Positions 1,994 to 15,128 of a DNA stretch of 64,000 nucleotides are shown here, one piece after another. Within the stretch, counting starts at the first letter, position 1, and the number at the start of each line of letters is the position of its first letter. The stretch is from Streptomyces sp. NBC_01276 (GTDB taxonomy: Bacteria > Actinomycetota > Actinomycetes > Streptomycetales > Streptomycetaceae), in the NCBI RefSeq assembly GCF_041435355.1, contig NZ_CP108442.1, positions 7,128,501 to 7,192,500 on the forward strand, written 5' to 3'. The position numbers and the translations under genes are program-made. The notes beneath the pieces are model-generated. The model did not search any database and had not been told where the DNA came from. It saw only the letters and a list, made by a program, of their open reading frames with translations.

Positions 1994-2244
1994 GCCACGG
2001 GTGCGGCAGCGGTGTGGCGGGGTGATCGGCGTCCTGGCGTTGGCAGAGCCGCACGGTCCACGTCGTGGACCCGTCGAGGGCGATGGCGGGGCGTACCGGT
2101 CGTTGATCGGCGGCAAGGCGGCAGCCGGCGCCGCTGCCGTCCGCACACGCCGTCGACCCCGGCGTTGCCGGTACCCGTTCGGCGGCTTCCGCCCTGGTGA
2201 TCCCGGCGACCATCATGGGCGCGTCGAGCGAGTGGGAGTACGCC
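1994..2244. other. Intergenic, no recognisable gene
   Basis: This 251-base stretch has open frames on both strands, but none gives a recognisable family or a plausible start with a ribosome site. It probably holds the promoter of the patatin-like gene and more debris of the upstream relic. Confidence 0.4.
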
Positions 2245-5200
2245 ATGCCCCAAGGATCGCAGCAGTGGGCGCCGAGGTGGCTGGTGGTGCCCGCGCTGGT
2301 GCTGTCGGCGATGCTGTTCATCGCGTTGGGGCGGATCGACGCGGGGCTCGGCCGGATCGAGGCACCGGACCACCCCGCGGCGACCTGGAGCAGCCTGGTC
2401 GCACTCGATCCCCTCTCCGAGCAGGCCGCCGCCGACGCACGCACGGCGTGGTGCGTCTGGTTCAACGCGATGCCCGACCGGCGGGCGGTGGCCGCCGCGC
2501 GGGGACCGTACGACGATCCCGGGCCGGGGCCACGGGTGGAGACCTGCCTGAACGCCTTCACGAGCCAGCCCCGGCCCGCGACCGCACCGCAGGCCGGCGG
2601 CGACGAGGCGCGGCTGCTGATCCGGTGGTACGTCGGCCTCGACGCGGTACTCGTCCTGCTCTACGTCTGGTTGCTGTACGCGGCCCTCACCGCCCTGCGC
2701 GCCAGGATTCCGTGCGGTCCTCCGGCCTCGCAGCCCGACGACCCGACGAGTACGACGCTCTGCTGGGCGACCAAGCGGTCGCGGCTCGTGATCCTGACCT
2801 GTGTGCTGGTGTCGGCGGAAGTGGCGGAGGACACCGGGCAGTGGATGCTGACCGGGCGCAGCCCGTCACCGGGCACGATCGACTTCCTGAGCCGGCTCAT
2901 CGGCTGGGCCGCCCTCGCCAAGTGGGCGTTCGTGGGCCTGGCGCTGCTGCTCCTGATCGTGTTGACCCTGCACACCGGGGTGCTCCGAACGGTGCCCTGG
3001 CGGGACTTCGTGGTGGTACGCGTACAACTCTTCGTGTCGGCCGTACTGTTGCTGTTCATCGTCGGCGTCGGGACCGACCAGGTGCCGGACGCCCTGCTCG
3101 GCCTGCTCGACCACTGGGCCACCGCCATCGCCACACCGGTCGCGGTCTTCCTGCTGTCGCTGCTGCTGTGGCGCAGCGTGCACCGCGTCGCCCTCACCCG
3201 CGACTCCGCGCTCGCTCCGGTCCATCAGTGGTGGGTGGCGGGAGCGGCCGTCGTCTGCGCGGTCCTCGGATTCTGGCTGCGTAGCCTGCTCGGGCTGGCC
3301 ATGGTGCTCGGCTTCGTCTTCGTCCTGTCCTGGATCGCGGGCGCGCCCTTCCGCCTCGGCGACGCGGCGGTGGATCCCGGAGCCGACGTGGCCAAGGCAA
3401 GGGCGCAGGGGCGGGCCGCCCTGATCGTCGGCGATCCGAGGAGGAACCTGCGGAGCATCGCGCGGTGGCTCGCGGCGCTACCGCTCCTGGCCCTCGGGGT
3501 GTTCGCCGTCCGGTCCGCCGTGGTACCGGCCATCGTCGGCCCGCGCCGCTGGTCCGCCGTCCTCCTCGTGGTCCTCGGGCTGTTGGCGGCCGCCGTCGGT
3601 TTTCTGCTGCCGTACCTGCTGGACTGGGCCGAGCGGCACTGGTCCTGGGCGAAGGAACCCGACACGCAGAACCGAAGGGATGAGCTGTATGTCGTCCTGG
3701 CCGCCCTGTTCGGGGCGTTCGCGGTCGGCTGTACGGTCACGCTCGTCACGGACCGGGCATGGAACCTGGCGGTCTGGGCGGGGCCGATGGCCGTGCTGAT
3801 GGTGTTCCTCGGCGTGGTGCTCGTGCTCCTGAACGAACTGCAGCTCTGGTCCGAACGGGCCACTCCGGTCGCAGGATTCCGGGCCCTGAAGCTGGACCGC
3901 ACCCCGGTCTTCGTACTGCTGATCGCCTGGTTCCTCCTCGGCTCGCTCGTCGATGCCAAGGGCCACCACCAGGTGCGCGTCCGGGAGGAGGCCGGGGCGC
4001 CGGTCCTGGTCGACGTGGACCTCGACACGGCGTTTCAGCGCTGGGCCGCCGCCAATTGTGCGACGGTGCCGTCCCCGGCCGATGCCGCAGCGGGCCCGGG
4101 GACGAAGCAGCCCCTGCCACTGGTGATCGTCGCGGCATCGGGCGGTGGCATTCGGGCGGCCTACTGGACCGCCTCCGTGCTGGACTGGCTCTTTCCACCG
4201 GGTCCGGTCACTCCCGCCGCAGGAGCCTCCTGCACACCGTCGGACGGACGGGCCCCGGTCTTCGCGGTCAGCGGTGTCTCCGGAGGCAGCCTCGGATCGA
4301 TCTCCTGGATCGCACGGACCTCGCCCGACGCGCCGGACGGCGATCCGAGCCACAGGAAGGTCTTCGGGCAGGACCATCTCTCCGGCGCACTCGCCTGGAT
4401 GGCATTCGTCGACCTGCCGCGAGCGTTCGTCGGCTTCCCCGGCAAGGACCGGGCGGCCGTACTCGAACAGTCCTGGGAACACCGGCAGAAGGAGCTGGAG
4501 CAGCCGTTCTACGCGACCTGGCAGCCGTCCTCCGACGGATCCACCACCACGTGGACCCCGTTGGCGCTGCTCAACGGCGCCGCTGCCGAGAGCGGTTGCC
4601 GCGTGCTCACCTCCGCCCTTCAGCTCGGGGCCTTCGACCAGCCCGTTGGATCCACCTCGTGCCGGCAGCGCCCTGAGGAGTCCCGCCAGAAGACGCGGGG
4701 GCCGCGGCCTGCACAGGCCGGGCAGGGCAGTCCCACCCTGATCGATTTGCGTAGCGGATTCCTCTGCGGAAAACAGGACGTCAACCGGTCCACCGCCGCC
4801 CTGCTCTCGGCGCGCTTCCCCTTCATCACGCCGTCCGGCCGGCTCACCGGCGACGCCTGCCACCACACCGGGGCGGGGCTGTCCGTGATCGACGGGGGTT
4901 ATGTCGACGCGACGGGCAGCATGACCGCCACCGATCTCCGGGAGCAGCTGGAGCATCTGAGCGCCTGCCACAACCAGCGGGTCGCAGGGGGCACGGGTGG
5001 CGCGGACTGCAAGCCGGCCGCCGGCACCGCGGCGCGGCCGGTGGAGGTGGTGCTGGTCCAGATCGACAACGGCTATACGAGTGTGGCGTCGGCCCCCGCA
5101 CCGGGCCGCCCCCGGGAACTGCTGGTGCCGACGAAGGGCAAGGCCGCCGCGGTGTCGGCGGCCGAGTCGACCGTGCGCCAGCGGGCTCTGGAAGCCTTCG

Positions 5201-5406
5201 GCTGCCCTGACTACCTCACCTTCGCCAACGTACGCGGCCCGGGAGCGCAGGCGCCCCTGGGCTGGGTGCTGTCGCTCAGTGCCAAGAAGGACCTGGACGA
5301 CCAACTGGCGAGGCTCAAGGGTGAAGGAGCGGGGAACGTCTCGCCGCTGACCGCCCGGCTCGCCGCCGCGCAGCAGGCCTGCGGGCGCGCGGGGATGACT
5401 CGCTGA
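2245..5406 (+). CDS. Membrane-anchored patatin-like phospholipase domain protein
   Basis: The 1053-residue product has two parts. Roughly residues 1-600 hold many hydrophobic segments. The C-terminal part carries patatin signatures: oxyanion loop ASGGGIRAAYW (631-641), nucleophile elbow GVSGGS with Ser679, and DGG with Asp883, giving the Ser-Asp dyad of patatin lipases. The expected role is hydrolysis of lipid acyl esters at the membrane, but no substrate can be named. The start at ATG 2245 is chosen because GTGGGAG precedes it by 7 bases; an in-frame GTG at 2197 lacks a site. It is monocistronic and convergent with the thiamine-diphosphate enzyme, with only 9 bases between stops. Confidence 0.75.
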   Translation: MPQGSQQWAPRWLVVPALVLSAMLFIALGRIDAGLGRIEAPDHPAATWSSLVALDPLSEQAAADARTAWCVWFNAMPDRRAVAAARGPYDDPGPGPRVETCLNAFTSQPRPATAPQAGGDEARLLIRWYVGLDAVLVLLYVWLLYAALTALRARIPCGPPASQPDDPTSTTLCWATKRSRLVILTCVLVSAEVAEDTGQWMLTGRSPSPGTIDFLSRLIGWAALAKWAFVGLALLLLIVLTLHTGVLRTVPWRDFVVVRVQLFVSAVLLLFIVGVGTDQVPDALLGLLDHWATAIATPVAVFLLSLLLWRSVHRVALTRDSALAPVHQWWVAGAAVVCAVLGFWLRSLLGLAMVLGFVFVLSWIAGAPFRLGDAAVDPGADVAKARAQGRAALIVGDPRRNLRSIARWLAALPLLALGVFAVRSAVVPAIVGPRRWSAVLLVVLGLLAAAVGFLLPYLLDWAERHWSWAKEPDTQNRRDELYVVLAALFGAFAVGCTVTLVTDRAWNLAVWAGPMAVLMVFLGVVLVLLNELQLWSERATPVAGFRALKLDRTPVFVLLIAWFLLGSLVDAKGHHQVRVREEAGAPVLVDVDLDTAFQRWAAANCATVPSPADAAAGPGTKQPLPLVIVAASGGGIRAAYWTASVLDWLFPPGPVTPAAGASCTPSDGRAPVFAVSGVSGGSLGSISWIARTSPDAPDGDPSHRKVFGQDHLSGALAWMAFVDLPRAFVGFPGKDRAAVLEQSWEHRQKELEQPFYATWQPSSDGSTTTWTPLALLNGAAAESGCRVLTSALQLGAFDQPVGSTSCRQRPEESRQKTRGPRPAQAGQGSPTLIDLRSGFLCGKQDVNRSTAALLSARFPFITPSGRLTGDACHHTGAGLSVIDGGYVDATGSMTATDLREQLEHLSACHNQRVAGGTGGADCKPAAGTAARPVEVVLVQIDNGYTSVASAPAPGRPRELLVPTKGKAAAVSAAESTVRQRALEAFGCPDYLTFANVRGPGAQAPLGWVLSLSAKKDLDDQLARLKGEGAGNVSPLTARLAAAQQACGRAGMTR

Positions 5407-5415
5407 CGGGGGCCG

Positions 5416-7122
5416 TCAGTCTCGGAAGCGTGCTTCGAGGGTCTCGACGAGGCCGTCGATCACGCCGTCCGGTGACGGGCTGTAGTGCGGCAGGGCCCAT
5501 CGCGTGATCTCGGCGTCGATGAGCGTGGGCCGGCCGGAGGCCAGTGCCGCGCGGAACGCGTCCTCGAAATCCTCAAGCGTCTCCACCCGGTAGCCGTCCG
5601 CGCCGCATGCACGGGCGTACGAAGCGAAGTCCGGGTTCTGGAACTCGACAAGGCCCGACTCGGCGTACGTGACCATCTGGAAGAGTTTGATCAGCTTGAA
5701 TTCCCCGTCGTTGAAGATGACCCAGATGACGGGGATCTCGTGCTCGACGGCGGTCATCAGCTCGAAGCCGGACAGCGAGTAGCACCCGTCGCCGCAGCCG
5801 ACGACGACGGTCCGGTCCGGGTGGGCGACCTTGACTCCGAGGGCTCCGTTCACGTGTCCGGCCATCGGCCCGAAGGAGCCGGCCTTGCGGAAGTTCTGCC
5901 CCTGTTCGAGCTCCACGTAATACCCGAGCCACGCCACGTGGGCGCCCGCGTCCGCGAGCAGGACGCCCCGGGGCGGCAGCATGCGCCCGATCGACTGCGC
6001 GAGTTCTCCGGGGTGGATCTTTCCCGTCAGGTGGGTGATCTTCCGGGCCTCGTAGTCCCGGCGGTCGATCTCGACCGCCGGGACTTCGCCGACCATCCGC
6101 TCCAGCGCGTCGGCCAGGGCGGCCACTGCGGGACGCGCGTCGGACAACAGGGTGTGGTCGGCCCGGTAGGCCTTGCGGAACTCGCCCTCGGAGATGTTCA
6201 CATGGATGAGCAGCTTGTTCTCGAACAGGTCCTCGCGGTAATTGAACGTGGCGTGCTGATTGAGGGAATTGCCGATGCACAGCACGACGTCGGCCTGGCG
6301 GAAGGCCTTCCACGCACTGGAGTGGCCGCTGTCGGCGAAGACGCCGACCGCGAGCGGGTGTCCCTCGGACACGATGCCCTTGCCGTCCAGGGTGGTGAGC
6401 AGTGGGATCTGGAACCGCTCGATCAGCCGCTCGATCTCCGGTCCCGCCCCGCTGCGTACCGCACCGAAGCCGACGAGCGCCACGATCCGCTTCCCCCGTG
6501 CCAGGGCGTCCGCGAGTACGGCCGCGATCTCCGCCACCCGTGCCGGGTCCGGCAGGACCGGCTTCACGTCGAGCCTCAGCGGCCGGAAGTTCGTGACCTC
6601 GACGCCGTGGTGGGTCAGGTCCTCGGGCACGTGGATGTGCACGGGCCCGGGCCTTCCCTCGAATGCGATGTTGACCGCCTCCTCAAGAACGTCGCAGGTG
6701 TCGGCGATGTCGGTGAGCAGGAAGGACTTCTTGGTCGTGGCCGCGAACATGGCCTGGGAGTCGGGCGTGCGGTTCACTCCCGAGGTCTCGTTGAGCGAGC
6801 CCCATCCGCGCCATTTCATGGTGGCGTACCCCGAGACGGCCAGGACCGGATAGGAGTCGGACATGGCCACGGCCAGCCCCGAGAACAGGTTGAACGCGCC
6901 CGGCCCGGCCGTCGCGAAGCAGAAGCCCAGCCGATTGGTGTACATGGCATAGCCGCAGGCCATGAAGGACGCGGCCTGCTCGTGTCGCGTGATGACCGGC
7001 CGGATCTGCCGCGAATGCTTCAGCGCCAGCATCAGACCCGCCGCGTTCTCCCCGGCACCGCCGAAGGCCGCTCGTACCCCGATGCCTTCCAGCCCCTTGA
7101 CGATGGCCTCGTAGACTCTCAT
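5416..7122 (-). CDS. Thiamine-diphosphate-dependent enzyme (acetolactate synthase-like)
   Basis: 568 residues with the three-domain layout of the IlvB/benzoylformate decarboxylase superfamily. The N-terminal Pyr domain has RHEQAA, in which Glu48 would activate the cofactor. A central NAD/FAD-fold domain follows. The PP domain carries the ThDP-Mg motif from VVVGCGDG to IFNDGEF. It differs from true acetolactate synthases in substrate-side motifs and has no small subunit nearby, so a C-C lyase or decarboxylase such as the 2-hydroxyacyl-CoA lyase/oxalyl-CoA decarboxylase branch is equally possible. It is the last gene of the operon, 10 bases after the nitroreductase-like gene, with GAGGGAGA before its ATG. 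Its position after an alpha-dioxygenase gene suggests it cleaves or condenses an oxidised fatty-acid product (inference). Confidence 0.85.
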   Translation of the reverse strand: MRVYEAIVKGLEGIGVRAAFGGAGENAAGLMLALKHSRQIRPVITRHEQAASFMACGYAMYTNRLGFCFATAGPGAFNLFSGLAVAMSDSYPVLAVSGYATMKWRGWGSLNETSGVNRTPDSQAMFAATTKKSFLLTDIADTCDVLEEAVNIAFEGRPGPVHIHVPEDLTHHGVEVTNFRPLRLDVKPVLPDPARVAEIAAVLADALARGKRIVALVGFGAVRSGAGPEIERLIERFQIPLLTTLDGKGIVSEGHPLAVGVFADSGHSSAWKAFRQADVVLCIGNSLNQHATFNYREDLFENKLLIHVNISEGEFRKAYRADHTLLSDARPAVAALADALERMVGEVPAVEIDRRDYEARKITHLTGKIHPGELAQSIGRMLPPRGVLLADAGAHVAWLGYYVELEQGQNFRKAGSFGPMAGHVNGALGVKVAHPDRTVVVGCGDGCYSLSGFELMTAVEHEIPVIWVIFNDGEFKLIKLFQMVTYAESGLVEFQNPDFASYARACGADGYRVETLEDFEDAFRAALASGRPTLIDAEITRWALPHYSPSPDGVIDGLVETLEARFRD

Positions 7123-7132
7123 CGGGTCTCCC

Positions 7133-8518
7133 TCATCCGTCCCAGCGCGAGGTGTGCCGGCGGTGCGCTTCCGTCAGGCCGTTCTGGAAGAACCGGTCGT
7201 AGTACTCGGATTCGACGTGGTGCGCCTGCAGCCAGATGCCGGGCACATGGATGGCGTCGGTGTGTGCCGGGAACCGCCCGTGGGTCTCGTGGATGTACAC
7301 GCAGATGTCCCGCGCGCATTCGATCACTTGCCGGTCGTACTCACTGGCCTCGGCGAGGTACCGCTGCGCGTAGTCGTTCTTGTAGATGCGGGCGAACAGA
7401 TCCTTGTCCGCGTAGATGCCGTTCTCCCCGAACTTGGAACGGACGACGGAATCGACGGCGTCGTGCATCGACGGGTAGTTGGGTGGGCAGGCGCCCTTGA
7501 TGAGGTGTTCGCCATCGGCCCGCAGCCCCACCGGGTGGGCGCGCAGCTCGGCGTATTTCGGTAGCGGCACCTGCCAGCGGAGGATGTCGGCAGGGCGGAA
7601 CTTCGGCGTGACGAAGTCGAAGCCCAGCATGCGGCCGTAGGTGCGCGAGAACTTCGGGTCGCCCAGCATGATCTGTGGGCTGACCGTCGCGTGGATCCAG
7701 GCACCGAGTCCCATGGCGTCCGCGACCAGCATCATGTTCTGGAGCAGCAGGTCGGCTTCGACCTGGGTACGCATCGGCCCCAGAGAACCGAGCGGCATCT
7801 TGATCGCGGGGTTGAGGAAGCCGCTGCGCACCCACTTGCGTACCCCGGCCGGGCGGTAGAAGTTGCGGTCGTCGACGGGCGTGGGCCGAGCTCCCTCGGG
7901 CTGGGTGAGCAGGTACATCAGCGCGTTGATGTACTGATGGGAGAGATCGACCACCGGCAGGAAGAGCGTGGTGCCCGGGCGATTGGACAGGAACCGGTTG
8001 GAGTCGAGGTACGCCGGGAAGTCGCGCATCCCCTCGGCGACGTCCAGGCGGCGGTCCAGTACCCGGACCTTCGACTGGCGTGCGCGTTCGATCAGCGTGT
8101 CGGGATCGAAGGCATGGTCCGGGGAGGGAGGCAGCTTCCTCAGGTAGTACGTGCCACTGTCGTTGATCATGAAGAAGTGGGTGGCCTGCGCGTTGTCGGG
8201 GCTGCCCGCGGTCCGCCCCGTCATGTTCAGGTTCGGCTTGGCCATGATGGGTTTGTGATCGCGCGGGTCCTCGAAGGGGCGGTCGGGCATGGTGAGTCCC
8301 GAGGAGCCGGTGAGGGCGATGAGCACCGCTTCCTCAAGCTCGCCCAGCGGCTCCGGCCGGTGCTCGGATCGATAGCTCATCGACCCGGCCGGCACGGACG
8401 CGCCCCTGCTGACGCGGTGGGTGCGCCGTTTGAAGACCGTCTCCCACAGCGGACGGGAAAGAAGGTCTTCCAGGCCGGGGTGGCCTGCGTGGTGGCCTGC
8501 ATGGTCGGGTGCGGACAT
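7133..8518 (-). CDS. Nitroreductase-like flavoprotein, uncharacterised
   Basis: 461 residues. Near the N-terminus FKRRTHRV resembles the Arg-rich FMN-phosphate site of nitroreductase-fold proteins. It is followed by the helix PEPLGELEEAVLIALTGSSG. Around residues 255-285, EADLLLQNMMLVADAMGLGAW matches the C-terminal helix of that fold. The last 130 residues, including HVPGIWLQAHHVESEYYDRF, are an extension I cannot assign. No heme or metal motif is evident. The ATG at 8518 is chosen because AGGAG lies six bases upstream; the ATG at 8524 directly abuts that site. Tight spacing to both neighbours implies work in one pathway, perhaps as a flavin redox step. The family assignment is tentative. 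Confidence 0.6.
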   Translation of the reverse strand: MSAPDHAGHHAGHPGLEDLLSRPLWETVFKRRTHRVSRGASVPAGSMSYRSEHRPEPLGELEEAVLIALTGSSGLTMPDRPFEDPRDHKPIMAKPNLNMTGRTAGSPDNAQATHFFMINDSGTYYLRKLPPSPDHAFDPDTLIERARQSKVRVLDRRLDVAEGMRDFPAYLDSNRFLSNRPGTTLFLPVVDLSHQYINALMYLLTQPEGARPTPVDDRNFYRPAGVRKWVRSGFLNPAIKMPLGSLGPMRTQVEADLLLQNMMLVADAMGLGAWIHATVSPQIMLGDPKFSRTYGRMLGFDFVTPKFRPADILRWQVPLPKYAELRAHPVGLRADGEHLIKGACPPNYPSMHDAVDSVVRSKFGENGIYADKDLFARIYKNDYAQRYLAEASEYDRQVIECARDICVYIHETHGRFPAHTDAIHVPGIWLQAHHVESEYYDRFFQNGLTEAHRRHTSRWDG

Positions 8519-8531
8519 GGCCATCTCCTGC

Positions 8532-11447
8532 TCAGCCGCGGCCGCGGCCGCTGTCGTTGCGTACGGGCTGGACCGGGCGCCAGGGCGCGAACGCGCTGGC
8601 CGCGCGCGGCAGGGTGCCCGCCAGCTCGGGGCAGTGCCGCAGGATGACGCTCGTCATGCCGTTGCGATCGATCCAGTCCATGCCGAGAGGCGTGTAGACC
8701 TCTGGCCGGAAGTCGACGGTGAGGAAACGGTCGCTCTGCAACCGTCTGCTGGCCATCAGGATGAAGACGCGGAAGGCGGTGTCGCTGAAGCCGAAGCCCG
8801 CGGGCGGATTCTCGGCGAAGAGCCCCACCATGGTGTCGATGTCGTCCACCGAGCGGTACACGTCCCGAAGCCGTGCGACCGTATCCGGATCGGCGGAGAG
8901 GTCCTCGAACCGCCGGATCCGCGGCTTGTGCAGGCCGGCGCGGAAGTCGTTGTAGCGCGCGACGCCGCGGCGCCGGGTGCGCACCAGGTCGACCACGGAG
9001 AGGTCGATCACCTCCCCGTCCCGCTTGAACGCCTGCAGGGCGCGCGGAAAGTTGTGCAAAGTGATCGCCCCCGGGTGGGCGATGCCCAGCGAGTACAGGG
9101 TGTTCACCAGACCGGTCTTGCGCATCAGCGGCTCCGCGGCGGCGCCCTGGACCTCGGTGAAGCCCAGGGTGTCGAGCCGATGGCCGAACCGGTGGTCGAT
9201 GAGCTCGTAGTCGTCGGGGATCAGGGGGTGCATCCGGTAGACGGTGACGAACTCCTCCGTGAGGGAGTACGGGGCACCGTGGTGGTCGGGCAGGGTCTTG
9301 GGGATGCCCTTCTGCCCGTTCGCCTCCAGCAGCCAGACGCCCAGCTGGTCGAGCCAGTTCTTCGGGGGCCCCTGCCAGTTGGTCTTCATACCGATGTCGA
9401 GCGTCTTGGTGGCGAGGATCGCGGGAGTCCATTCGACCGTGTGGATCTTCGCGATCAGGGCGGAGACGATCAGCCGCGCCGTGTGGTACACCCGGTCTTC
9501 GCTCATGCGCGGATATTCGTGCCGCAGGGCTTCGCACACCGCGTTGTGCTCACGGGCGAACAGGGTGTGCATGGCGCTGAGGCCGAGCCACCAGTTGTCC
9601 GTGAATCCGGTGCGCGGGACGCCGTTCGAGCCGCTGGGCAGGTGCCCCTCCTCCAGCCGGAGCCCGGCGCCGCCATCGGGCTCGCGAAGCGACTTCGCGA
9701 CGGACAGGTCGCTGCCGTAGAGCTCCGAACCGTCCCACCAGTGCGAGACGTCGCCGGCGAACACGATCGGCGGCCGCCCGCTGCCGGGTGGATCCACCGC
9801 CTCGTCCGCGCCGAAGCGCATCACCTTCTCCCGCGGTCCGCCCGGGGTGTTCTGCCAGGTCTCGCCGGGCGGCAGCGGCACCTCGATGCTCTTGGCGGCG
9901 ACGGGAAGCCTCTTGTGCTTGACCCAGTCGTGCACTTGGAACTGGATCCACGCGGCGGCGATGATGTTCAGCGACGTCGCGGGGATGAACACGTCACGCT
10001 GGAGCAGTTGCCTGCTGACGGCGACCGGATTGGGCGTGTCGAACTGGTCCGGGCGGTAGACGGGGGGCACGGTGCGGCCGAAGGTCGCACCGACGGCGCC
10101 CATCCGCGGCGCCGACAGATCGTTGTAGGTGCCATCGTAACTGCGCCTGACCAGCAGCTCTTCGTCGAGCGGGGCCTCGACCGGCCCGGCCTGGGGCGGA
10201 GCCTCGTGGACTTCGGTGTCGATGAGGTTGTGCCGGCGCAATGTCTGCCGAAAGGCCATGAGGTTGAGCAGGCCGAGGGGGGTGGGCAGCCGGTGCCACG
10301 GGACGAAGCGGTCCACGGTACGGAAGGCGGCCCGGAGCGGTGCCCCGAGCAGGGCGTTGCGCCGTGGCTCGACGGTCAGGAAGCGGTGGCCCAGGCGGTG
10401 GGCGCTGCTCGCCTCGTACGCGAGCTTGCGGGCACGGTTGAGGTTGCCCAGGGGGCGGAAGTCCTCCGTGGTGTGCCAGGGGTTGAACGCCAGCAGGTCG
10501 ACCTGCGACGCGGAGGTGCGCGCTTCGGCGGTGTGGATGTCCTGGAGCGGGATGGTCAGCGTGGCCACGGGCAGGACGGGCGCGTCCTCCTCCCTCCACT
10601 CGGCCGCGCCGTCCTCGACGGAGGTGCGCCGGGCGTCCACGTAGCGCTGCACGCAGAACTCGAAGACGACATCCGTCCGACTCAGCCGCTGTGAAAGCTC
10701 ACGCCGCAGGTGATCGGGATCGGGATCGGGATCGGGGCCGGGGTCGGGGCCGGGGTCGGGATCGGTGCGCGGCGTTGCCGGGGCGGCGGCCGGTGAGGCG
10801 TCGGCCGCAGGCCGCAGCTGATAGCGCACCGGTCCGCAGTCGCCCCACAGGATCGCCCCACGGCTCCAGTACGTCTCCAGCGCCAGGCTGGACACCGTGC
10901 GGCTGGTTCCCGCGACGACGTTGCGCCGCATGCGGGCGGCCGTGGACCAGCCGACCGCCAGGGGCAGCTTGACGAACAGGGCGTACCCTTTGCCGAGCCG
11001 CGAGTCGGCGCCCGCCATGGCCTTCGCGAAGGCGACGAACTCCATCGCGTCGCGGGCGTGGGAGACCGGGAAGCTCGTCATCAGCAGATCGTGGGTCTCG
11101 TCGGGGCCCACCTCGACCCGCAGCGCCGCCCCGCGCAGATCGGGCGCGAAGTCGGGCTGACGGACGCCGCTCGCGTTGGAAAGCCGGACCGTGACCCGGT
11201 ACTCGGCTCCGGGCCTGGCGAAACCCGTGCGCAGGGCCCCGGGGAGGTCGTCGTGGAACCTCAGACGGGCGTTCTCCACGCCGAGGACCGCCTTGGCGTG
11301 GAAGGTCCGTTCGAGAGCGGGGGAGCGGCTGCGTTTCTTCGCCTTGAGCTGTACCCGAACGAGGTCACCCGCGAGTCGCTCGAAGACCAGCCGTTCGGCC
11401 TCAGGACTGCCGCCGACGTAGCGCTCGTACCGCTCGACCTCGTCCAT
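8532..11447 (-). CDS. Catalase-like domain fused to alpha-dioxygenase/cyclooxygenase-type heme peroxidase
   Basis: 971 residues. Residues 1 to about 400 look like the catalase-fold family related to allene oxide synthases: RTFHAKAVLG with distal His50, and RKLAY (Arg340, Tyr344), the RxxxY heme-ligand pattern. Residues about 440-971 look like an animal-type heme peroxidase of the fatty-acid alpha-dioxygenase/prostaglandin synthase group: QFQVHDW with distal His506, and YRMHPLIPDDYEL with Tyr737 three residues before proximal His740, as in cyclooxygenase YxxH. Such enzymes make fatty-acid hydroperoxides by tyrosyl radical chemistry, and catalase-like partners convert hydroperoxides. The start ATG 11447 is preceded by GAAGAGG. 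It is the first gene of a three-gene operon. The order of domains and retained ligands are seen; substrate and product are inferred. Confidence 0.8.
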   Translation of the reverse strand: MDEVERYERYVGGSPEAERLVFERLAGDLVRVQLKAKKRSRSPALERTFHAKAVLGVENARLRFHDDLPGALRTGFARPGAEYRVTVRLSNASGVRQPDFAPDLRGAALRVEVGPDETHDLLMTSFPVSHARDAMEFVAFAKAMAGADSRLGKGYALFVKLPLAVGWSTAARMRRNVVAGTSRTVSSLALETYWSRGAILWGDCGPVRYQLRPAADASPAAAPATPRTDPDPGPDPGPDPDPDPDHLRRELSQRLSRTDVVFEFCVQRYVDARRTSVEDGAAEWREEDAPVLPVATLTIPLQDIHTAEARTSASQVDLLAFNPWHTTEDFRPLGNLNRARKLAYEASSAHRLGHRFLTVEPRRNALLGAPLRAAFRTVDRFVPWHRLPTPLGLLNLMAFRQTLRRHNLIDTEVHEAPPQAGPVEAPLDEELLVRRSYDGTYNDLSAPRMGAVGATFGRTVPPVYRPDQFDTPNPVAVSRQLLQRDVFIPATSLNIIAAAWIQFQVHDWVKHKRLPVAAKSIEVPLPPGETWQNTPGGPREKVMRFGADEAVDPPGSGRPPIVFAGDVSHWWDGSELYGSDLSVAKSLREPDGGAGLRLEEGHLPSGSNGVPRTGFTDNWWLGLSAMHTLFAREHNAVCEALRHEYPRMSEDRVYHTARLIVSALIAKIHTVEWTPAILATKTLDIGMKTNWQGPPKNWLDQLGVWLLEANGQKGIPKTLPDHHGAPYSLTEEFVTVYRMHPLIPDDYELIDHRFGHRLDTLGFTEVQGAAAEPLMRKTGLVNTLYSLGIAHPGAITLHNFPRALQAFKRDGEVIDLSVVDLVRTRRRGVARYNDFRAGLHKPRIRRFEDLSADPDTVARLRDVYRSVDDIDTMVGLFAENPPAGFGFSDTAFRVFILMASRRLQSDRFLTVDFRPEVYTPLGMDWIDRNGMTSVILRHCPELAGTLPRAASAFAPWRPVQPVRNDSGRGRG
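10712..10765. repeat. Nine tandem GRYCGG hexamers inside the fusion gene
   Basis: Nine head-to-tail hexamers (GATCGG, GGCCGG and GGTCGG variants) encode a run of Asp-Pro and Gly-Pro dipeptides at about residues 228-246 of the fusion protein. The array lies within the catalase-like domain, between the distal His and the RxxxY motif, and is probably a surface loop of variable length. Confidence 0.85.

Positions 11448-13599: not shown

Positions 13600-15128
<1,529 letters not shown>

Follow-up and report, generated by a model that had tools for sequence, protein, structure and literature searches.

Organization of the locus

The window analysed here is a stretch of 64,000 nucleotides from Streptomyces sp. 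NBC_01276 (contig NZ_CP108442.1, positions 7,128,501 to 7,192,500), and the genes under study, named P1, P2 and P3, lie on its minus strand between positions 5416 and 11447 (Table 1). The layout of three closely spaced genes proposed in the initial annotation was confirmed, with intergenic gaps of 7 bases between P1 and P2 and 10 bases between P2 and P3.

Table 1. Coordinates (positions in the window) of the genes and domains at the P1-P2-P3 locus
Feature	Position	Strand	Basis
P1, predicted catalase-related / alpha-dioxygenase fusion, 971 aa	8532..11447	-	Open reading frame
P1 N-terminal catalase-related heme domain, residues 23-355	10383..11381	-	R47, H50, Y344 and R351 as presumed heme positions
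P1 C-terminal predicted alpha-dioxygenase domain, residues 378-956	8580..10316	-	H506, Y737, H740, H669/R902/T674
P2, protein with FMN-nitroreductase-like fold, 463 aa, clade linked to P1	7133..8524	-	Open reading frame, fold match
P3, ThDP enzyme of the acetolactate-synthase-like group, 568 aa	5416..7122	-	Open reading frame, TPP domains

A convergent ORF of 1069 amino acids (2197-5406) ends 9 bases from the stop of P3. It was judged by eye to be a membrane protein and carries GGGIRAA and GVSGGS, presumably patatin-like motifs, and no Pfam match was found for it at E 0.01. A conserved link of the gene set to a lipase was rejected as a general feature, as the ORF was matched weakly at one locus alone (L109) among the 80 loci surveyed below. 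In Geodermatophilus, a patatin-like phospholipase gene (L130:11365-12627, Pfam E 5e-25) overlaps the end of P2, and it was unmatched in the remaining 79 loci. An AMP-binding protein is encoded at 13600-15102 on the opposite strand, separate from P1-P3. A role as a defence system was rejected, P1, P2 and P3 all being without a PADLOC match, and so was a phage origin, for which P2 alone was compared and gave no PHROGs match. No sigma-70-like promoters or terminators were found at the locus, a result which is uninformative at this GC content.

The alpha-dioxygenase half of P1

Residues 435-943 of P1 match the Pfam family An_peroxidase (E 1.9e-96). The best solved relatives of the C-terminal half are 4kvj/4kvl (E 1e-105) and 4hhr (E 1e-101), all alpha-dioxygenases, which we take to be the rice (4kvj/4kvl) and Arabidopsis (4hhr) enzymes, and these are followed by lactoperoxidase (4e-24) and COX-2 (near 5e-10). 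In an alignment of 561 residues, this half shares 39% identity with 4kvj from plants. The residue numbers of rice alpha-dioxygenase given in the available part of PMC8720084 fit the 4kvj chain at each of the 16 positions compared once a constant +3 is added, in support of the name given to this chain. In P1, 14 of the 16 positions are retained, and retention is complete (8/8) for H157, H311, T316, F375, Y379, H382, F552 and R559. The distal His of P1 is H506 (rice H157), which is kept in 26 of 27 aligned fusions and replaced by Arg in one. The catalytic Tyr737 and proximal His740 (OsaDOX Y379 and H382), the carboxylate anchors H669 and R902 with the C2-positioning T674 (rice H311, R559 and T316) and the Phe pair packing on the catalytic Tyr, F733 and F895 (rice F375 and F552), are present in all 27. 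Two channel positions are changed, M325 to L683 and A331 to T689, and the substrate preference of P1 may therefore differ from that of the rice enzyme.

AlphaFold modelled this half poorly, with pLDDT values under 50 for most of it, so its geometry is argued from the sequence and carries no claim about the fold. The presence of the channel residue Tyr737 and of the carboxylate triad agrees with the initial annotation, which had proposed an alpha-dioxygenase. There is good support for assigning the C-terminal half of P1 as a fatty-acid alpha-dioxygenase, with a 2(R)-hydroperoxy acid as its predicted product.

The catalase-related half of P1

The N-terminal half of P1 has a compact catalase-related fold. 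Structurally nearest to it are a mycobacterial 33-kDa catalase-related protein, coral allene oxide synthase (cAOS) and the AOS-lipoxygenase fusion, and true catalases rank behind these, in line with the catalase-like assignment made earlier. The presumed proximal Tyr344, Arg351 at +7 and Arg47 occur in 27 of 27 fusions and the distal His50, with Arg at -3, in 26. The cAOS residue numbers were taken from the available part of PMC5617202 and were matched to P1 by spacing and by eye. According to that text, Thr66 of cAOS immediately precedes the distal His; in P1 this Thr is absent and Phe49 takes its place (F 24, Q 2 and L 1 among the 27 fusions). At the position judged by eye to correspond to cAOS N137, P1 has Ser125 (N 19, S 7 and G 1). 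Because Ser125 and Phe49 deviate, the reaction of the catalase-related half cannot be read from the sequence. Moreover, the formation of an allene oxide needs an allylic hydroperoxide, and the 2-hydroperoxide of a saturated acid is none. With Phe49 in place of the cAOS Thr and a hydroperoxide that is not allylic, the earlier proposal of an allene oxide synthase is unsupported.

A PDPDPG-type insertion of about 14 residues lies in this half at about 10710-10784 of the window; at the same site two of the 26 other fusions have a few residues and the rest have nothing.

P2 and P3

P2 shows an FMN-nitroreductase-like fold through a marginal Foldseek match, and its fold matches include the nitroreductase-fold oxidases of peptide/NRPS pathways BmdC, ThcOx and McbC. 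By sequence, P2 scored 14.5 bits against Pfam PF00881, under the cut-off of 23.5, and no family reached its cut-off. P2 is probably an FMN enzyme. The wider family of P2 is large and consists of proteins of about 460 amino acids, mostly unnamed or hypothetical, with an archaeal member (Natrialba) and no precomputed Pfam domain among the entries listed. P2 matched 23 of 396 phylum genomes and 13 of 200 family genomes; 2 and 5 of these, respectively, are close to P2 and the rest are distant relatives.

P3 carries three TPP domains (Pfam), and Glu48 and G444-D445-G446, which we take to be the catalytic Glu and the GDG motif of ThDP enzymes, are invariant across 12 aligned orthologs; the earlier identification as a thiamine-diphosphate enzyme is borne out. 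A profile of P3 orthologs ranked BbmA first (318.8 bits), followed by CsmA (264) and acetolactate synthases (219), while 2-hydroxyacyl-CoA lyases reached 171.7 bits at best, after pyruvate oxidases and glyoxylate carboligase. The lyase role suggested for P3 in the initial annotation therefore does not correspond to its nearest relatives. The nearest solved relatives are BbmA and CsmA (8xod, 8x3x and 8x3z), for whose reaction no published account was found in the literature searched. P3 orthologs (E 1e-120 or less) occurred in 3 of 200 family genomes, each time at the P1-P2 locus. In two genomes without P3 at the locus (G095 and G172) no ortholog was found elsewhere, the best matches being paralogs of 32% and 31% identity, and in the Roseibium genome with locus L137 no ortholog was found and the best match reached only 29%.

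Conservation of the gene set

When genome contigs were scanned using a P2 alignment, 121 stretches were confirmed and 80 of them kept. At all 80 loci P1 is found no more than a few kb from P2, and P3 is present in 43. The catalase half is found in 79, the exception being Reyranella (L135). By record title, 23 of the loci are alphaproteobacterial (Rhizobium, Mesorhizobium, Sphingomonas, Roseibium and others), and the gene set recurs in Actinobacteria and Alphaproteobacteria. The gene order is P1P2 in 36 loci, P3P1P2 in 18, P1P2P3 in 12 (and in 3 more with two P3 copies), P1 divergent from P3P2 in 6 and other in 5. P1 and P2 share a strand in 71 loci, 63 of which have a spacing of at most 167 bases and 27 an overlap of 4-14 bases, as measured from script-called gene starts. 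Apart from P1-P3, the 40 largest neighbour-gene clusters are each confined to at most 18 loci; five of them, of 4 to 11 loci each, span both phyla and were judged by eye to be transporter or dehydrogenase genes.

Some loci have particular features. Two P3 copies stand at the P1-P2 locus in L061, L063, L067 and L128. In Roseibium/Labrenzia (L131, L133, L134, L136, L137 and L138), a di-heme cytochrome-c-peroxidase-like gene (in L138 with 144.3 bits, slightly below the cut-off of 150) and an extra ORF of 195-201 amino acids, for which no family was found in L137, lie between P1 and P2, and P3 is absent. Seventeen of the 80 loci encode, in the vicinity of P1 or P2, a protein of about 490 amino acids, with pentapeptide repeats in L094; a protein of this kind also directly follows P1 in the Streptomyces loci L178 and L179 and is called as two ORFs in the Streptomyces locus L180.

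Close P1 homologs were found in 35 of 295 same-genus, 6 of 394 class and 8 of 200 family genomes (overlapping samples which include the genome of the window), and in the alphaproteobacterial sample an alpha-dioxygenase-like match at E 1e-30 occurred in 2 of 289 genomes, one of them the search centre itself. The count seeded on P1 was confined to close homologs (at least 68% identity); three weak partial matches and 16 alpha-dioxygenase paralog loci (41-48%) were left out, and the latter were read separately. Among the 41 distinct loci counted, P1 is alone in 17, accompanied by P2 in 17 and by both partners in 7, and P1 with P3 and without P2 occurs in none, within the stretch read; for G184, G033 and G122 the absence of P2 was also tested genome-wide. 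The catalase half is present at all 41. Contig ends cut short some of the stretches fetched in the survey. Such nesting would arise by chance in 1.5% of cases if the loci were independent, and this figure overstates the case because the loci are related. The nested presence suggests an order P1, P2, P3 with P1 alone indispensable, and it fits, as weak evidence, a pathway in which P2 would use the product of P1 and P3 that of P2. On the other hand, the 17 loci without P2 and P3 mean that the product of P1 may be an end product and the partners tailoring enzymes. In three of them (L178-L180) the flanks resemble ordinary metabolic genes as judged by eye. The co-occurrence of the three genes proposed earlier is real, but they do not form an obligate set.

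Trees were compared for 43 loci. Those of P1 and P2 have 28 of 40 splits in common and show one strong conflict, whereas the P3 tree is contradicted by five strong P1 splits and four strong P2 splits, and P3 may therefore have been exchanged. A branch separates the alphaproteobacteria from all other loci in the P2 tree (support 0.59) and the P3 tree (0.98); in the P1 tree they are not set apart and group with Geodermatophilus (0.90).

Another alpha-dioxygenase operon of this genome

The same genome encodes, outside the window, a second alpha-dioxygenase, 46-47% identical to the first, in a five-gene operon at C1:1024384-1032236 (L176:3385-11237). The other four genes lie upstream of it on the same strand and encode a benzoylformate-decarboxylase-type ThDP enzyme (649 bits against a cut-off of 493), a GlcD-like (2-hydroxyacid-oxidase-like) FAD oxidase (400 bits, below the cut-off of 568), a P450 and a protein whose alpha/beta-hydrolase matches are sub-threshold. 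The five-gene pattern of ORFs was recognized by order and length in 7 of the 16 paralog loci, the first ORF being short (378 aa) in L188; Pfam searches covered four genes of L176 and two each of L177 and L184. The ThDP enzyme of this operon has 22% identity to P3, and the occurrence of two distantly related ThDP enzymes beside two distinct alpha-dioxygenases suggests 2-oxo acid chemistry after alpha-dioxygenation.

In two further loci (L182:8678-12237 and L190:8236-11782) an alpha-dioxygenase lies near a separate catalase-like ORF, with an ORF of 129 amino acids in between. In BLAST alignments with the catalase half of P1, these ORFs reach 42% identity across about 96 residues in L182 and 29% across about 267 in L190, and no Pfam catalase domain was found in them. 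This arrangement is possibly an unfused version of P1, and the pairing supports the functional link which the fusion implies.

Proposed pathway and alternative explanations

A modular bacterial system of fatty-acid alpha-oxidation, built around a two-heme fusion enzyme, is the reading to which we give an even chance. The alpha-oxidation part of it is supported by the second operon, where a ThDP decarboxylase and a 2-hydroxyacid-oxidase-like protein accompany the alpha-dioxygenase. The C-terminal half of P1 would bind the carboxylate of a free fatty acid, or of a comparable linear carboxylic acid, and the Tyr737 radical would take a hydrogen from C2 with addition of O2 to form the 2-hydroperoxy acid, a step well supported by the residue-by-residue agreement with crystallised alpha-dioxygenases. 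The catalase-related half, with heme on Tyr344 and His50 as the distal residue, would then capture the 2-hydroperoxide before its spontaneous decarboxylation and might turn it into a 2-oxo or 2-hydroxy acid. P2 may carry out the next redox step, most likely from 2-hydroxy to 2-oxo acid, and P3, where present, could decarboxylate the 2-oxo acid to a chain-shortened aldehyde, or to an acyloin with another carbonyl. The initial annotation had proposed oxidation next to the carboxyl followed by rearrangement or cleavage; the residues favour the C2 chemistry, but the allene-oxide and 2-hydroxyacyl-CoA-lyase routes found no support. It can further be speculated, although we consider it doubtful, that the pathway is self-contained, with one two-heme enzyme converting a free fatty acid through a channelled 2-hydroperoxide to a 2-oxo fatty acid, from which P2 and P3 would produce a long-chain acyloin or a chain-shortened signal.

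Among the alternatives, a mid-chain system like that of Nostoc punctiforme would form the allylic hydroperoxide of an unsaturated acid, which the catalase-related half cleaves or rearranges and whose fragments P2 and P3 tailor. The resemblance of cAOS to the catalase half of P1 speaks for such a system, as does the tandem of heme dioxygenase and catalase-related lyase, the nearest published precedent in the available parts of PMC9579011 and PMC13049297. It is nevertheless unlikely, since P1 has the alpha-dioxygenase carboxylate anchors near the catalytic Tyr, which would place C2 at the radical, has alpha-dioxygenase as its best solved relative, far above COX, and carries Phe49 in place of the Thr that adjoins the distal His in cAOS. 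The Nostoc 10S-dioxygenase does not appear among the listed matches of P1 to solved structures. We also see little likelihood in a guarding role, where the catalase-related half destroys H2O2 or stray hydroperoxide, P1 makes Cn-1 aldehydes in the manner of plant alpha-dioxygenases, and its two neighbours either use those aldehydes or are mere bystanders. The products of alpha-dioxygenases decarboxylate spontaneously to aldehydes, as this explanation needs, and nearby partners are missing at 17 of 41 P1 loci; against it, the P2 clade always accompanies P1 in the 80 kept loci, the P3 orthologs of the 200-genome sample are confined to the P1-P2 locus (3/3), the linkage persists across two phyla and several gene orders, and the half in question is closer to catalase-related proteins than to catalases.

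Cleavage of an alpha-hydroxylated acyl-CoA by P3, acting as a 2-hydroxyacyl-CoA lyase and giving formyl-CoA and a Cn-1 aldehyde, appears quite improbable. These lyases are ThDP enzymes of the superfamily of P3 and act in alpha-oxidation, and the AMP-binding protein encoded separately on the other strand would suit this route. The substrates of alpha-dioxygenases, however, are free acids, and the chains of 2-hydroxyacyl-CoA lyase and oxalyl-CoA decarboxylase score far below BbmA, CsmA and the acetolactate synthases (171.7 vs 318.8 bits). A further proposal makes the substrate a specialised linear carboxylic acid in place of a membrane fatty acid and the genes a natural-product tailoring cassette. 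The patchy distribution of P1 (35/295 in the genus and 6/394 in the class, with alpha-dioxygenase-like matches at E 1e-30 in 2/289 alphaproteobacteria) and the presence of BmdC, ThcOx and McbC among the fold matches of P2 are in its favour, but it has a low probability, as only five of the 40 largest neighbour clusters beyond P1-P3 span both phyla and look transporter- or dehydrogenase-like by eye, and the flanks of L178-L180 resemble ordinary metabolic genes by eye.

Significance and comparison with known systems

Searches of the open literature, which left out most subscription papers, turned up no account of this gene set, nor of an actinobacterial catalase/alpha-dioxygenase fusion. According to the available part of PMC8720084, alpha-dioxygenases are known mainly from plants, together with a few characterised cyanobacterial ones; there, Kim et al. 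mention actinobacterial alpha-dioxygenases and state that they trimmed N-terminal extensions for their tree, and neither 'catalase' nor 'fusion' occurs in the text. A fusion conserved in actinobacteria and alphaproteobacteria would give the alpha-dioxygenases a bacterial pathway context, and P1 would offer a two-heme enzyme for testing the channelling of hydroperoxides. The carriers of the fusion, whose chemistry is predicted, include soil and marine bacteria, and the hosts Rhizobium, Mesorhizobium and Streptomyces raise a testable question on lipid signals in soil and roots. The enzymes may also be possible biocatalysts for 2-oxo acids, 2-hydroxy acids or aldehydes.

P1 shares the whole dioxygenase domain and the key residues with the alpha-dioxygenases AtDOX1, OsaDOX, CalDOX and LepDOX. 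In comparison to the plant and cyanobacterial enzymes, it adds an N-terminal catalase-related heme domain and clusters with P2 and P3. Nostoc punctiforme has a linoleate 10S-dioxygenase and a catalase-related 10S-hydroperoxide lyase (Brash 2014, as cited in the available parts of PMC9579011 and PMC13049297), which resemble P1 in combining a heme dioxygenase with a catalase-related, hydroperoxide-metabolising partner. There, however, the specificity is mid-chain and the lyase comes from a separate gene according to the part of PMC13049297 available, which we take as right, although the wording leaves some chance of a fused precedent; P1 is one polypeptide with alpha-dioxygenase anchors. In the coral AOS- and HPL-lipoxygenase fusions (3dy5; PMC5617202, in part) the partner is a lipoxygenase and Thr66 of cAOS corresponds to Phe in P1, and in the cyanobacterial catalase-LOX fusions (PMC11719350, in part) the partner is likewise a lipoxygenase, unlike the alpha-dioxygenase of P1. 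The fungal DOX-P450 fusions (linoleate diol synthases; available parts of PMC13049297 and PMC4420034) join, like P1, a dioxygenase of the COX superfamily to a second heme domain that converts hydroperoxides; this domain is a P450 and C-terminal, whereas the second heme domain of P1 is catalase-related and N-terminal. If the self-contained pathway is true, it would be an undescribed oxylipin pathway common to Actinobacteria and Alphaproteobacteria, and would match, for alpha-oxidation, the dioxygenase fusions of animals and fungi.
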